DNA of 64,000 nt from Prevotella sp. (GTDB lineage Bacteria; Bacteroidota; Bacteroidia; Bacteroidales; Bacteroidaceae): the NCBI GenBank assembly GCA_016281055.1, contig JAEEHW010000082.1, forward strand, positions 62,001-126,000. Reading direction: 5' to 3'. Position numbers and translations under genes: made by a program. Positions 14,533-56,751 of this stretch are shown piece by piece. The stretch's first letter is position 1, and every line of letters starts with the position of its first letter. The notes under the pieces are model-generated. The model did no database searches. It saw only the letters and a list, made by a program, of their open reading frames with translations, and was not told where the DNA came from.

Positions 14533-14583
14533 GCTATCCAAATACCATGTAAAAGCTATCGTATTACAGTGCTATCTGATAGC
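14533..14583. repeat. Cluster of GCTATC words downstream of mazG
   Basis: GCTATC occurs at 14533, 14555 and 14571 and its complement GATAGC at 14578. The first two sit in the longer word AAAAGCTATC (or TAAAAGCTATC). It lies in the roughly 500-bp gap between mazG and the lipocalin-like gene, in which I see no coding potential beyond this cluster, the hairpin at 14617-14664 and the promoter at 14859-14889. Confidence 0.5.
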
Positions 14584-14616
14584 TATTACATTGTGATATG
14601 GCTGCTTTTACAACAT

Positions 14617-16830: not shown

Positions 16831-16922
16831 TGTAGTTAAGCAGTCTGTAGTTAAGACGAATGTGACAGCCTGTGAGCGCAAACGAAATGTCTTGACTTCT
16901 TGACTCCTTAACTCCTTAACTC
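16831..16922. repeat. Inverted repeat of TTAACTCC/GTTAAG words between galM and the symporter
   Basis: The left part holds two GTAGTTAAG words. The right part ends with tandem CCTTAACTCCTTAACTC. The words pair imperfectly across the gap. The same words build the repeat at 18893-18965 on the other side of the symporter gene. Confidence 0.6.
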
Positions 16923-18892: not shown

Positions 18893-18965
18893 TTAAGGAG
18901 TTAAGTAGTTAAGACATTATGCATAATCAGATGAATGCACTTGTCTTAACTCCTTAACTCCTTAA
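18893..18965. repeat. 24-bp inverted repeat between the symporter and araD
   Basis: Arms at 18893-18916 (TTAAGGAGTTAAG...) and 18942-18965 (...CTTAACTCCTTAA) pair with one mismatch. Tandem words GGAGTTAAG make up each arm. It shares TTAACTCCTTAACTCC with the element at 16831-16922. Confidence 0.75.
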
Positions 18966-18985
18966 ATTCTTAATTCCAAATAAAA

Positions 18986-50519: not shown

Positions 50520-51329
50520 ATTCATGGAATTAAAATCATTCTCTGTGAGGTACCATAAATTCTTGTGCTCCGTAGGTGCTCAGGCGCTCCGTGGAGTCTC
50601 TCATAAATTTAATTTATGGAGAAATTAATGACAATTCAGGAGAATTCATGGTACGCCGTAGGCAAGGATAAATTTCCGTGAATTATGTAGGTTAGAGTGT
50701 TTTTGCCTATTCTTAACGTCAACTCGATGAATTTTGATAAACATAAAATATTTATGATAATTGACTTCGTCGAGCTAAACCTTTGTGGTAATTCATGGTG
50801 ATTCGTGTTTCTTTCAACATTAATGCCCATGAATTTTCCATGAATTATTTTCGTCGAACTCACGTTAATGTTTTTCATCGTTAATGCCATCAATATAGAC
50901 CATTAATGTCATTAATAATCTTAGGGCAAAGCATTAATGTTATTAATGAATGAAATTAGCGGCATTAACGTAAAAAGGAAAATTTTGAAGACAACTTAGG
51001 ACAACGAGGACAACTTTTTTCTAGCATATAATTTCTGTCATACAGCGTTGTCATTGTTGTCTGTGTTGTCTTCTATTCAAATAGACTCTTAAAAATTTCC
51101 ACTTTCGTTATTCATAATTGATTGTTTCGTAAGAAATCTTTTAAAAATCTAAACTAAAATCTTATAGAAGAAATATTTCTGGCGAAGCCCAAATATTATG
51201 AAGCAGATTTTTGGGGATTTCTAACCGAAGGTTATAATAATACATATGGAAGTTGGATGAAGGGGGTGGGGAACTGTGTCCATTTGTGTTCGCACACAGC
51301 GTTGTCGTTTACATTTTTTCATAATTTTC
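50520..51329. repeat. Gene-free stretch built of inverted repeat words
   Basis: No convincing gene is present. The left part is a mixture of AATTCATGG/CCATGAATT and CATTAATG words in both orientations. GACAAC words at 50987-51014 pair with GTTGTC words at 51047-51073 (28- and 27-nt arms, several mismatches). A second pair, 51132-51150 and 51205-51222 (AGAAATC...AAAAATCT), brackets an A/T-rich loop. Two short frames in it have no family features. Confidence 0.6.
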
Positions 51330-52223: not shown

Positions 52224-54077
52224 ATGAAACACATTAACATAACAATTCTCCTTACTACGCTAATGTGTATGTTTGGAGTACAGACTTTTGCTCATCATTT
52301 CGAAGCAAAAAACAATGACGGAGTTACCATATATTATGCTTATACTAACAACAATAGCAATAGCTCAACTGTGTATGTGACATTTCGTGGTAGCACCTAT
52401 ACAGCGTCTTCAGGAGAATACAGAAATGATGTAGTTATACCAGAAACTGTCACATACAATGGCAAAACATACAAAGTGACGAGTATCCGCAGTTATGCAT
52501 TCTATGATTGTAGTGGTCTTACCTCAGTAACCATTCCCAAGAGTGTGACGTCAATTGGTGAAAGAGCGTTCAATGGTTGCAGCGGTCTTACCTCAGTAAC
52601 TATTTCCGAGGGTGTGACGTCAATTGGTGAAAGAGCGTTCGCAGGCTGCAAGGCTCTTGTTTCTTTGACAATTCCCAATAGCGTGACGTCAATAAGTGAT
52701 TATGCGTTCCTGGATTGTAGTGGATTAAAAAGGATGAGAGTGTCAGATAATGTTGAGGTTATAAATGAAACCATTTTTAATAGTTGCAATTTTGAAACAC
52801 TTATTTTAGGCAAGAAAACATGTTACATTGATATTAATTCTTTGAGTGCTTCGAAGTTTTTAATGGTTTACGCCGAAATTCCTCCCAAAATAATTAGTTC
52901 AAATGGAACAATCAAAGTGCAGAATACTGCATTGATTTTAGTTCCATACAATAAATTGGAAGAATACAAACATGAATGGATTGATTATTATCCTTCATAT
53001 CTAGGATACAAGTATTTACCCATAGTCGATGCGGATATTTGTTTTTATGACCAAGCCACTCTGCAGGATTATCTTGTGGAAACTGAGAAATATGACATGG
53101 ATACCATAACTTCTGTGGCATTCTATAATGGAAAGGATGATTACTTGACAGACAAATGGCTGAGAACAGGAATGAATCCTAACTGCTTGTTTTATGTTTA
53201 TCCAGATGATATCATGACTGGAGACAATGTGGTTAATATATCAAACAGCACAGCGGAAAACATTGTATTACAAGACGGATATTCTTTCAGATGTCCTACG
53301 GCATTCAACGCTAAAAACATTTTATACTCTTACACCCCCAATGTGTGGGCTGATGGAAAGAAAGGTTGGGATGCACTATGTCTGCCGTTCAGGGTGTCTC
53401 AGTTCAAAGCAAGTACAAAAGGCTCTATATCGCCAATCTTGCTGGGAGCAAACGGAGACTTCTGGCTTCGCAAATTCGTCGGAGCATCAAGCGAAGAACT
53501 GTATTTCACCTCTACATACGATGGAATAATGGAAGCTAACACTCCATACATCGTGGCATTCCCTGGAAAAGGAATGGGCAGCGGAAATTTAGAGGGCCAA
53601 AGCATTTCATTTATAGGAAAGGATATAGAAGTGGGAGTTTCTGAAGAAAAAGAAATACAGCGAAATGAGTATATCTTCAAAGCAAACTATAACACCGCAG
53701 CCGACGGTCACACCGGATGGGTATTGAATTCTGCGGGAGATGGCTTCGATGAAAGTCAAACTGTAGGTAACAAACCATTCAGGGCGTATTTCTACACAGA
53801 CGACGGAAATGCAGCAGGAGCAAAGAGTCTTTGTATTGGATATATTGGTGATGAGGAGATGACTGCCATAGATGAATTACTAATGGAAAAAGAATCAATA
53901 AAGGTAAATGCAGATGGTTCTGTAGAGGTTGTTTCTTCCAAAGATGGTGTCATCAATGTGTTTGGAGTAAATGGTACTCTTGTATGTAGCCAAAAGGTGA
54001 CGAAGGGAATCAATTATATTGGTGGCCTTCCTAAAGGACTTTATATAATAAACAAGCAGAAAATTATTATACCATGA
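52224..54077 (+). CDS. BspA-like leucine-rich-repeat surface protein
   Basis: The 617-residue product has a signal peptide through about residue 23 and a short beta domain. About four LRR_5 (BspA-type) repeats follow (about 85-185: SYAFYDCSGLTSVTIPKSVT, then SIGERAFNGCSGLTSVTISE and so on). A long central beta-rich region has no clear family. The C-terminal tail of about 60 residues (GVINVFGVNGTLVCSQKVTK, then GLPKGLYIINKQKI) is of the type used for type IX secretion or surface attachment. BspA-type proteins bind host matrix or other bacteria. Its last four bases (ATGA) overlap the dockerin-type gene. Confidence 0.85.
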   Translation: MKHINITILLTTLMCMFGVQTFAHHFEAKNNDGVTIYYAYTNNNSNSSTVYVTFRGSTYTASSGEYRNDVVIPETVTYNGKTYKVTSIRSYAFYDCSGLTSVTIPKSVTSIGERAFNGCSGLTSVTISEGVTSIGERAFAGCKALVSLTIPNSVTSISDYAFLDCSGLKRMRVSDNVEVINETIFNSCNFETLILGKKTCYIDINSLSASKFLMVYAEIPPKIISSNGTIKVQNTALILVPYNKLEEYKHEWIDYYPSYLGYKYLPIVDADICFYDQATLQDYLVETEKYDMDTITSVAFYNGKDDYLTDKWLRTGMNPNCLFYVYPDDIMTGDNVVNISNSTAENIVLQDGYSFRCPTAFNAKNILYSYTPNVWADGKKGWDALCLPFRVSQFKASTKGSISPILLGANGDFWLRKFVGASSEELYFTSTYDGIMEANTPYIVAFPGKGMGSGNLEGQSISFIGKDIEVGVSEEKEIQRNEYIFKANYNTAADGHTGWVLNSAGDGFDESQTVGNKPFRAYFYTDDGNAAGAKSLCIGYIGDEEMTAIDELLMEKESIKVNADGSVEVVSSKDGVINVFGVNGTLVCSQKVTKGINYIGGLPKGLYIINKQKIIIP

Positions 54078-54478
54078 GAATTATACATCGAAAAAGCGTT
54101 ATATTGATAGGTTTGTCATTATTCACTTTTTTAATGATACCAACCCCTGTAGCTGGTTCTGATGACAATACTCAGAAAAGCCCATCTATGGGTGGTTCTG
54201 GACTCAGTGATCAGGAACAGGAAAGCCCTTCAATGGGTGGAACTGGACACAGTGACCAGGAGCAGGACAGTCCGTCTGTAAACAAGTTTTTGTTGGGTGA
54301 CGTGAACCACGATGGTTATATCACCATGGCAGATGCAAATATGGTGGTGAACTATTTCCTTGCTACAAATAAGCCAGAGGACTTCGATGTGAAAGCCGCC
54401 GACGTGAATGGTGACGGCTCAATCACCATGGCGGATGCAAACCAGATAGTGAATATGTTCCTGGGTAGTGCACAGTGA
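54074..54478 (+). CDS. Exported dockerin-type protein with a 15-residue tandem repeat
   Basis: The 134-residue product has a signal peptide to about residue 28 and a repeated linker (SPSMGGSGLSDQEQE, then SPSMGGTGHSDQEQD, then SPSVNK). Two calcium-binding dockerin repeats follow (GDVNHDGYITMADANMVVNY, about 76-95, and ADVNGDGSITMADANQIVN, about 113-131). Asp/Asn ligands at positions 1, 3, 5 and 12 of each loop are intact. Type I dockerins bind cohesins; no cohesin is seen here, and in Bacteroidetes such domains are often found on surface proteins with unknown partners. Overlap with the LRR gene implies coupled translation and a shared role. Confidence 0.82.
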   Translation: MRIIHRKSVILIGLSLFTFLMIPTPVAGSDDNTQKSPSMGGSGLSDQEQESPSMGGTGHSDQEQDSPSVNKFLLGDVNHDGYITMADANMVVNYFLATNKPEDFDVKAADVNGDGSITMADANQIVNMFLGSAQ

Positions 54479-54566
54479 TACCAACGGTTGGTATTGTTCG
54501 TACCAAGACCAGGTATTGTTTGTACCAATGGTTGGTATATGTTGTACCAACCGTTGGTATCAATGC
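54479..54566. repeat. Four 22-bp tandem units, each with a TACCAA..TTGGTA palindrome
   Basis: Units begin at 54479, 54501, 54523 and 54545, exactly 22 bp apart, and start TACCAAC, TACCAAG, TACCAAT and TACCAAC. Units 1, 3 and 4 contain TACCAA-N3-TTGGTA palindromes; unit 2 is degenerate (TACC..GGTA). The linkers are similar (TTGTTCG, TTGTTTG, TATGTTG). The array begins at the dockerin stop codon and lies about 80 bp upstream of the transketolase promoter. Confidence 0.85.
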
Positions 54567-54646: not shown

Positions 54647-54678
54647 TTTGCGTATATAAAAAAAATAATGTAACTTTG
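54647..54678 (+). promoter_or_regulatory. Promoter of transketolase
   Basis: TTTG at 54647-54650, 20 bp, TAACTTTG at 54671-54678, 45 bp before ATG 54724. Confidence 0.7.
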
Positions 54679-54723: not shown

Positions 54724-56751
54724 ATGGCAAACGACATCAAAGTATTGAATCATGCTGCTGACAATATCAGAATATTGGCAGCAGCATCAGTTGAGAAAGC
54801 TAAGTCGGGACACCCAGGCGGAGCCATGGGCGGTGCCGACTTTATTAATGTACTTTATTCTGAATATCTGCAGTACGACCCAAAGAACCCGGAGTGGGTT
54901 GGTCGCGACCGCTTCTTCCTCGACCCTGGTCATATGGCACCGATGCTTTATTCACAGTTGTGCCTTGCTGGCAAGTTCTCGCTTGATGAGTTGGCACAGT
55001 TGCGTCAGTGGGGTTCACCTACAACAGGACACCCTGAGTTTGAGATAGCACGTGGCATAGAAAATACCTCTGGTCCTCTCGGACAGGGACACGTATTCGC
55101 TATAGGTGCAGCCATCGCAGCCAAGTTCCTTGCTGCGCATACCGGCAACCCAACATTCGCAAAGGAAACCATCTATGCATACATCTCTGACGGTGGCATT
55201 GAGGAGGAAATCTCACAGGGTGGTGCACGTGTGGCTTCTACTCTTGGACTTGACAACCTCATCATGTTCTATGACTCTAACGACATCCAGCTCTCTACTG
55301 AGACTAAGGAGGTTATGAATGAGGATACAGCAGCCAAGTATCGTGCACTCGGTTGGTATGTAATTGAAATCAACGGTAACGATGCAGCTCAGATTCGCAA
55401 GGCTATCGAAGAGGCAAAGGCAGTCAAGGGACAGCCTGCACTCATCATAGGTAAGTGTATCATGGGTAAGGGCGCACTGAAGGAAGACGGTACATCATAC
55501 GAGGCAAACTGCAAGACTCACGGTGCACCTCTCGGTGGTGGCGCTTTCGTCAACACAATAAAGAATCTCGGTGGTGACCCAGAGAATCCATTCCAGATTT
55601 TCGATGACGTTAAGGAACTCTATGCAAATCGTGCTAAGGAGCTTGAGGCAATCGCTGCAGAGCGTTATGCAGAGGAAAAGGCATGGGCTGACGCCAACCC
55701 AGACAAGGCAGCACAGTTGAAGGACTGGTTCGCAGGCAAGGCACCAAAGGTTGACTGGTCTGTTGTTTCTCAGAAGGCCAACGATGCTACACGTTCTGCA
55801 TCTGCAGCATGTCTGAGCGCATTGGCAGAGCAGGTGCCAAACATGATTTGTGCATCAGCCGACCTCTCAAATTCTGACAAGACCGACGGCTTCCTGAAGA
55901 AGACACGCGCCCTGACCAAGGACGACTTCGGTGGCGCATTCTTCCAGGCAGGTGTGGCAGAGCTTACCATGGCATGCTGCTGCATAGGTATGGCACTTCA
56001 CGGAGGTGTAATACCAGCATGTGGAACATTCTTCGTATTCTCAGATTATATGAAGCCAGCAGTGCGTATGGCTGCCCTGATGCAGTTGCCAGTGAAGTTC
56101 ATCTGGACACACGACGCATTCCGTGTTGGTGAGGACGGTCCTACACATGAGCCTGTTGAGCAGGAGGCACAGATTCGCCTTATGGAGAAACTGCACAACC
56201 ACGCAGGCAAGCCATCTGTTCTCGTACTCCGCCCGGCAGAGGCAAAGGAGACAACAGAAGCTTGGAAACTCGCTATCGAGAATACTGCAACTCCTACGGC
56301 TCTTATCTTCTCACGCCAGAATATCAACGACCTGCCAGAGGGCAACGACTATTCACAGGTTGCCAAGGGCGCATACGTTGTTGCAGGTTCTGACGAAAAC
56401 CCAGACGTTGTGTGCGTAGCTTCAGGTTCTGAGGTTTCTACACTCGTCAGCGGTGCAGAACTGCTTCGCAAGGATGGTGTGAAGGTTCGCATTGTCAGCG
56501 TTCCTTCAGAGGGCCTGTTCCGTGAGCAGTCAGCAGAGTATCAGCAGAGCGTTATCCCAGCTGGTGCAAAGGTATTCGGCATGACAGCCGGACTGCCAGT
56601 AAACCTGCAGGGCTTCCTCATCGGTGCTGATCCTAAGTCAAAGATCTGGGGTCTGGAGAGCTTCGGTTTCTCTGCACCATACAAGGTGCTTGACGAGAAG
56701 CTGGGTTACACCGCTGAGAACGTTTACAAGCAAGTGAAATCTATTTTATAA
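54724..56751 (+). CDS. tkt: Transketolase
   Basis: The product has 675 residues from ATG 54724; an upstream TTG inside the promoter is not used. Thiamine-diphosphate sites are DFINVLYSEYLQYDP, GPLGQGHVFAIGAAIAAK and the metal motif YISDGGIEEE near 155-164, where enzymes such as E. coli's read GDGC. The second Pyr domain has CASADLSNSDKT and FVFSDYMKPAVRMAAL, and THDAFRVGEDGPTHEPVEQ is present. It transfers two-carbon units in the non-oxidative pentose phosphate pathway, joining arabinose breakdown to glycolysis. rpiB follows after an inverted repeat. Confidence 0.95.
   Translation: MANDIKVLNHAADNIRILAAASVEKAKSGHPGGAMGGADFINVLYSEYLQYDPKNPEWVGRDRFFLDPGHMAPMLYSQLCLAGKFSLDELAQLRQWGSPTTGHPEFEIARGIENTSGPLGQGHVFAIGAAIAAKFLAAHTGNPTFAKETIYAYISDGGIEEEISQGGARVASTLGLDNLIMFYDSNDIQLSTETKEVMNEDTAAKYRALGWYVIEINGNDAAQIRKAIEEAKAVKGQPALIIGKCIMGKGALKEDGTSYEANCKTHGAPLGGGAFVNTIKNLGGDPENPFQIFDDVKELYANRAKELEAIAAERYAEEKAWADANPDKAAQLKDWFAGKAPKVDWSVVSQKANDATRSASAACLSALAEQVPNMICASADLSNSDKTDGFLKKTRALTKDDFGGAFFQAGVAELTMACCCIGMALHGGVIPACGTFFVFSDYMKPAVRMAALMQLPVKFIWTHDAFRVGEDGPTHEPVEQEAQIRLMEKLHNHAGKPSVLVLRPAEAKETTEAWKLAIENTATPTALIFSRQNINDLPEGNDYSQVAKGAYVVAGSDENPDVVCVASGSEVSTLVSGAELLRKDGVKVRIVSVPSEGLFREQSAEYQQSVIPAGAKVFGMTAGLPVNLQGFLIGADPKSKIWGLESFGFSAPYKVLDEKLGYTAENVYKQVKSIL

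Follow-up and report, generated by a model that had tools for sequence, protein, structure and literature searches.

22-bp palindrome arrays at gene ends and DUF6078, their proposed DNA-binding partner in Bacteroidales

The array between a dockerin gene and tkt

The window, meaning the whole 64,000-nucleotide stretch of Prevotella sp. DNA that was analysed, which corresponds to C97:62001-126000 of genome G000, carries a row of short palindromes in the gap between a dockerin gene and a transketolase gene. The features of this region are as follows:

54074..54478, strand +: dockerin gene, upstream neighbour; small secreted protein with a type I dockerin (PF00404, E 1e-14)
54479..54559, no strand: array of four palindromic units, period 22 bp
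54479..54493, no strand: unit 1, TACCAACGGTTGGTA, then spacer TTGTTCG
54501..54515, no strand: unit 2, TACCAAGACCAGGTA, TACC/GGTA intact and inner arm mismatched, then spacer TTGTTTG
54523..54537, no strand: unit 3, TACCAATGGTTGGTA, then spacer TATGTTG
54545..54559, no strand: unit 4, TACCAACCGTTGGTA, the last unit
54724..56751, strand +: transketolase gene tkt, downstream neighbour

The units are 15-bp palindromes of the form TACC-N7-GGTA that start at 54479, 54501, 54523 and 54545, which bears out the exact 22-bp spacing described in the first-pass annotation of this DNA. The array also begins at a stop codon as described there, the TGA of the dockerin gene (54476-54478) directly adjoining unit 1. 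Its end had been placed at 54566, but the last unit stops at 54559, so that the longer span takes in the following 7-bp spacer. Arms were said to be kept in three of the four units; this holds for TACCAA/TTGGTA, which fails in unit 2, but not for TACC/GGTA (often TACCA/TGGTA), which is unchanged in all four. The chance expectation for three exact in-register units is about 5e-8 for the whole genome, and a periodic-palindrome detector returned no arrays in 10 mononucleotide shuffles of the window. In the real window, the detector also gives two weak three-unit runs with a 22-bp period, at 50910-50975 (CATTA..TAATG) and 14548-14613 (TGTAA..TTACA), which are perhaps decayed arrays or AT-rich chance occurrences.

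The dockerin gene is a neighbour of the array and not a functional part of it. On the other side, the ATG of tkt lies 164 bp downstream of unit 4, and a Bacteroides-type -7 box, TAACTTTG, is present at 54671-54678, ~110 bp past the array. Alignments of tkt to relatives start at or near the start of tkt and are array-free in the aligned stretch, these relatives being too distant to fix the ends of an insertion.

Other repeats occur in the window as well. The dockerin gene contains 45-bp repeats at 54173-54267, and its dockerin-coding stretch (54296-54465) has six more genomic copies that are 81-86% identical, which suggests a multi-protein dockerin system. A BspA-type leucine-rich-repeat gene contains 69-bp repeats at 52500-52693, and the 8-bp tandem repeat CTTAACTC is found twice, 2 kb apart (16891-16922 and 18945-18977).

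Arrays in the window genome and in its relatives

A search of the genome for further clusters with a 22-bp period, as proposed in the first-pass annotation, revealed 16 arrays, of which 15 have four units and one has five. With a relaxed two-unit pattern, 51 places were found in this genome (G000, assembled in 151 contigs) compared to three for a backward control. All 16 arrays are intergenic, most of them soon after a stop codon, and they are dispersed over contigs; the 15 outside the window adjoin unrelated genes. Comparison of 64 units (consensus RTACC-N7-GGTAY) gave a between-array identity of 96.5% in the arms, 42% in the central five bases and 30% in the inner spacer, and no flanking sequence common to the arrays was found. 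Conservation is confined to the arms and the 22-bp register and does not extend to centres and spacers.

The register is strict. Successive exact units that lie at most 100 bp apart are spaced by 22 bp in 297 of 306 cases, by 44 bp in eight and by 45 bp in one. In genomes other than that of the window, single half-sites frequently cap an array at -11 and +11, which gives a half-site spacing of 11 bp, close to one turn of the helix. Phasing and arm conservation together fit a protein that reads double-stranded DNA rather than slippage alone, and the earlier view that simple slippage does not account for the array is indirectly supported by the contrast between arms and spacers and by the many other copies.

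Arrays are located preferentially at gene ends, especially between converging genes. Compared to background gaps of the same loci, they are over-represented in convergent gaps (27 of 76 arrays vs 25 of 182 gaps; p=8e-5, with crude gene calls) and, by the same crude calls, under-represented in divergent ones (12 of 76 vs 61 of 182).

When genome contigs were scanned with a three-unit pattern, 49 stretches matched, and every record concerned bore a Bacteroidales name: Prevotella, Bacteroides clarus, B. propionicigenes and uncultured relatives. In a set comprising one genome per species, the strict TACC pattern was present in 12 of 100 genomes of the genus, including that of the window, and the exact relaxed pattern in one further genome among 201 sampled across the family. 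Three-unit TACC arrays are also borne by three IMG/VR contigs (L140, L141 and L142). Between genomes, arrays range from 3 to 12 units, and at one shared site B. clarus has eight units and B. propionicigenes five to six. The first-pass annotation had set against its own reading the case of unit number and arms varying freely with no other copies. The number of units indeed differs from one related species to another, but the arms are fixed and many other copies exist.

Recent copying of arrays does happen. In genome G088, there are seven near-identical array copies of ~80 bp with no further shared flanks, and in G034, arrays with TCCCA arms lie inside a dispersed MITE-like element of ~440 bp (L256-L268) with inverted GCATACACTACATACAC-like ends.

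DUF6078 genes and their linked arrays

Clustering of the genes around arrays revealed one outstanding family of seven proteins from seven genomes, each encoded directly beside an array. All seven belong to DUF6078 (PF19555): the protein of the window genome scores 104.6 bits against a curated cut-off of 27, and the other six score 116-158 bits. The sole DUF6078 gene of the window genome lies outside the window, where it adjoins another array of the same kind:

C44:42257-42652: DUF6078 gene

Of 100 genomes sampled from the genus, 60 carry DUF6078. Among the 12 genomes with TACC arrays, two gave no DUF6078 match (G077, 88% complete, and G091, 93% complete).

DUF6078 proteins are small and basic (median pI 8.4), and their invariant cysteines at positions 22, 27, 33 and 62 likely form a zinc site. 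The confidently predicted fold (pLDDT 88.7, pTM 0.72) had no match below E 1 in the PDB (best E 1.0), solved DNA-binding proteins included, and otherwise gave only weak viral matches (best E 0.1); no solved relative was convincing by sequence or fold. Neither a nuclease nor a transposase family or fold was recognisable, and nothing relevant was found among defence (PADLOC) and phage (PHROGs) families. An open-access literature search returned no paper on DUF6078, the relevant papers it did return dealing with REP and BrickBuilt elements, and the pairing of DUF6078 with arrays is apparently undescribed.

In a reverse test, 90 DUF6078 loci were scanned with the periodic-palindrome detector, which is blind to arm sequence. 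An array of at least three units was present within 500 bp of 53 of the 90 genes, most often 0-150 bp past the gene, and arrays had a density of 0.58/kb close to it against 0.023/kb at greater distances. Shuffled sequence, preserving base composition only, gave none. The period of the 69 arrays at these loci was 22 bp in 59 and 21 bp in six. No three-unit array was detectable near the remaining 37 genes, five of which have two units with a period of 22. The arms beside DUF6078 genes are of more than 20 kinds, e.g., TACCA, GTCCCA, TTCCCA, GTCCGAA, TTATACA, GTTTCA and GTACG.

The pairing extends to DUF6078 genes that were added later (13 in two sets). These came from elsewhere in the family and from another family of the phylum, Parabacteroides included, as well as from plasmids of B. 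finegoldii, P. distasonis and the spirochaete Treponema saccharophilum and from phage-sorted faecal contigs. An array of at least three units accompanies 12 of them (4/4, then 8/9), and the remaining gene has two units. The Treponema plasmid pTS1 additionally holds a second, 97% identical copy of the DUF6078 gene end and array (L317:2148-2470, L326:28550-28873) beside a type ISP restriction-modification gene; as this second array carries the gene end along, it gives no evidence for independent movement. In P. distasonis (L319, L320), the DUF6078 genes adjoin a type I restriction locus and a RhuM-family gene.

Arm sequence varies from lineage to lineage and tracks the DUF6078 protein tree. Mapping the arm label on a tree of 41 proteins needed 10 changes, compared to 25.0 with shuffled labels, and none of 200 shuffles was as low. 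Given that gene and array are linked, this agreement is partly plain co-inheritance. Arms nevertheless persist across protein distances at which the spacers are already random.

The linked array also predicts the arms of dispersed arrays in the same genome, for which three predictions were set beforehand. GTCCGAA arrays gave 288 matches in G097 and 0-1 in each of 11 other genomes. TTATACA..TGTATAA occurred 68 times in G026, 30 times in G003 and twice in G075, the three genomes in which a DUF6078 gene is linked to these arms, and was absent from nine others; the two matches of G075 are the linked array itself, so linkage is not always accompanied by dispersal. GTTTCA..TGAAAC occurred 29 times in G026 and 21 times in G003, with none in ten others. 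TCCC..GGGA is dispersed in G034 and G088, both of which have such a linked gene, although this query was not a clean blind test. Within the protein, residue 102 (L043 numbering) is R or K with GT-type arms and mostly N, G or H in TACC proteins, and at residue 107 (same numbering) the GTACG and GAAAC classes have E. Both are candidate specificity positions, confounded by descent.

A proposed binding system, its alternatives and known repeats

Taken together, we propose with a probability of roughly 0.7 that DUF6078 is a sequence-specific DNA-binding protein for which the arrays serve as cooperative sites, placed at gene ends and phased with the helix. The array in the window would be one dispersed copy of the recognition site for the single DUF6078 protein of this genome. 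A zinc-stabilised dimer would bind double-stranded TACCA-N5-TGGTA, and with half-sites every 11 bp, four or more dimers could align on one face of the DNA and bind cooperatively. Occupied arrays at transcription ends might serve as roadblocks, insulators or nucleoid-organising sites, or alternatively be the mark of a selfish element. Our preference is for cooperative binding and a structural function at gene ends, given that each site keeps its arms intact while the spacers drift. A cooperative protein-binding array had been suggested from the window alone, in which the link to DUF6078 is not visible, and strict phasing, conservation confined to the arms, the many copies and a candidate cognate protein now lend it indirect support. 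More broadly, DUF6078 and the 22-bp arrays quite probably constitute an undescribed protein-DNA system of Bacteroidales, found also on a Treponema plasmid, in which tens of phased gene-end arrays with lineage-specific sites are scattered or maintained as a diversifying chromosome-marking or selfish system.

The strongest competitor, which we consider unlikely, is a REP-like selfish system in which DUF6078 or a recruited enzyme copies the arrays, so that the arrays are mobile and effects at gene ends are secondary. The near-identical copies in G088, which share no further flanks, and the MITE-like copies in G034 speak for it, as do the patchy occurrence under the strict pattern and the placement at gene ends that is known for REPs. 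Since some copies spread within the larger element of G034, dispersal of sites may not need DUF6078 at all. This explanation is weakened by the lack of a recognisable nuclease or transposase in DUF6078, by the array carriers G075, G026 and G003, which are without Y1 transposases, and by the arms of the window genome, which are kept while spacers diverge and thus point to selection at each site. A Y1 transposase as the driver was rejected on its absence from several array-bearing genomes: Y1 (PF01797) was absent in G075, G026, G003 and G027, and the window genome gave one weak match on a contig (C88) without arrays.

It is considerably less probable that the arrays work in transcripts as clusters of 3'-end hairpins, acting as terminator, mRNA stabiliser or RNA site of DUF6078. 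RNA hairpins had been raised as a second possibility, and the position of most arrays 3' of genes and the strong predicted fold of the window array (z -5.95) would suit them. However, a bias of G.U over A.C on the sense strand was not significant (19 vs 17 cells, p 0.87; 23 vs 13, p 0.13), complementarity between units was not in excess (permutation p 0.14-1.0), and hairpins in RNA have no need of a constant 22-bp spacing. No Rfam family scored above threshold, sub-threshold matches being mostly microRNA models. These results disfavour the hairpin possibility. CGG/CCG units, together with a double change that separates B. clarus (L113) from B. propionicigenes (L109), had hinted that units pair into long hairpins; this related idea was rejected, as complementarity did not exceed that of permuted arrays.

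It is highly improbable that we are dealing with a local operator or a set of iterons whose action is confined to the dockerin-tkt region: the array does sit between these two genes, but fifteen more adjoin unrelated genes, the tkt alignments of relatives are array-free, and no replication gene was seen nearby. Equally improbable is a functionless minisatellite from replication slippage; the units of an array all point the same way and resemble one another to some degree in their cores, and their number differs between species, so duplication probably contributes to array growth, but the gap between arm and spacer identity, the constant number of four units in all but one of the 16 arrays of this genome and the tie to DUF6078 genes all argue against it.

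The arrays give a concrete and testable role to DUF6078, a family of unknown function, and they bring to light a whole class of phased sites, dispersed over genomes, that escapes annotation. As more than 20 arm sequences can each be matched to known proteins, they offer natural material for deciphering a protein-DNA recognition code. They also raise the question of why recognition keeps changing, be it through conflict, incompatibility of paralogues or genome identity.

Several known systems resemble the arrays in part. Iterons of plasmid origins are directly repeated protein sites of about 22 bp, one per two helical turns. The arrays share this direct repetition of 22 bp and two turns per unit, but they are palindromic and scattered over many contigs. 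Furthermore, inspection of the neighbours of 16 arrays, with Pfam applied to the window neighbours only, revealed no initiator gene, and the earlier suggestion of an iteron set finds no support.

The BrickBuilt MITE of Porphyromonas gingivalis, likewise intergenic and from Bacteroidota, has about 19 copies with a tandem period of 23 nt, but its unit AGAYCATARTATCCTCTCRTRTG is non-palindromic, lies between terminal inverted repeats and has no linked protein (PMC4596501). Arrays of the window genome, while similar in period, differ in having 22 bp, another sequence, palindromic units, no shared flanks and a link to DUF6078.

In REP/RAYT systems (REPtrons), short palindromes are dispersed between genes and mostly sit at gene ends, a dedicated protein gene lies beside its own repeat, and several sequence families exist (PMC3733652). 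The 22-bp arrays are also dispersed, intergenic, palindromic, often at gene ends and adjacent to a protein gene. They differ in that the GTAG/CGTC tag is absent at the palindrome foot in 64 units of the window genome, in that their units are in tandem and phased at 22 bp, and in that DUF6078 is not a Y1/HUH transposase.

That a single protein can have palindromic sites scattered over a genome is, in general terms, already known. In MatP/matS, ParB/parS and Noc, one DNA-binding protein has many scattered palindromic sites, which are single and of fixed specificity. The proposed DNA-binding protein DUF6078 would share this arrangement, but its sites would be phased multi-unit arrays with a specificity that diversifies between related genomes. 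In the open-access literature, we found no precedent for a small, dedicated protein of unknown fold whose own gene is flanked by a phased, multi-unit array and whose sites diversify lineage by lineage. By analogy, the DUF6078/array system is best read as working somewhat like REP/RAYT or MatP/matS while being related to neither.
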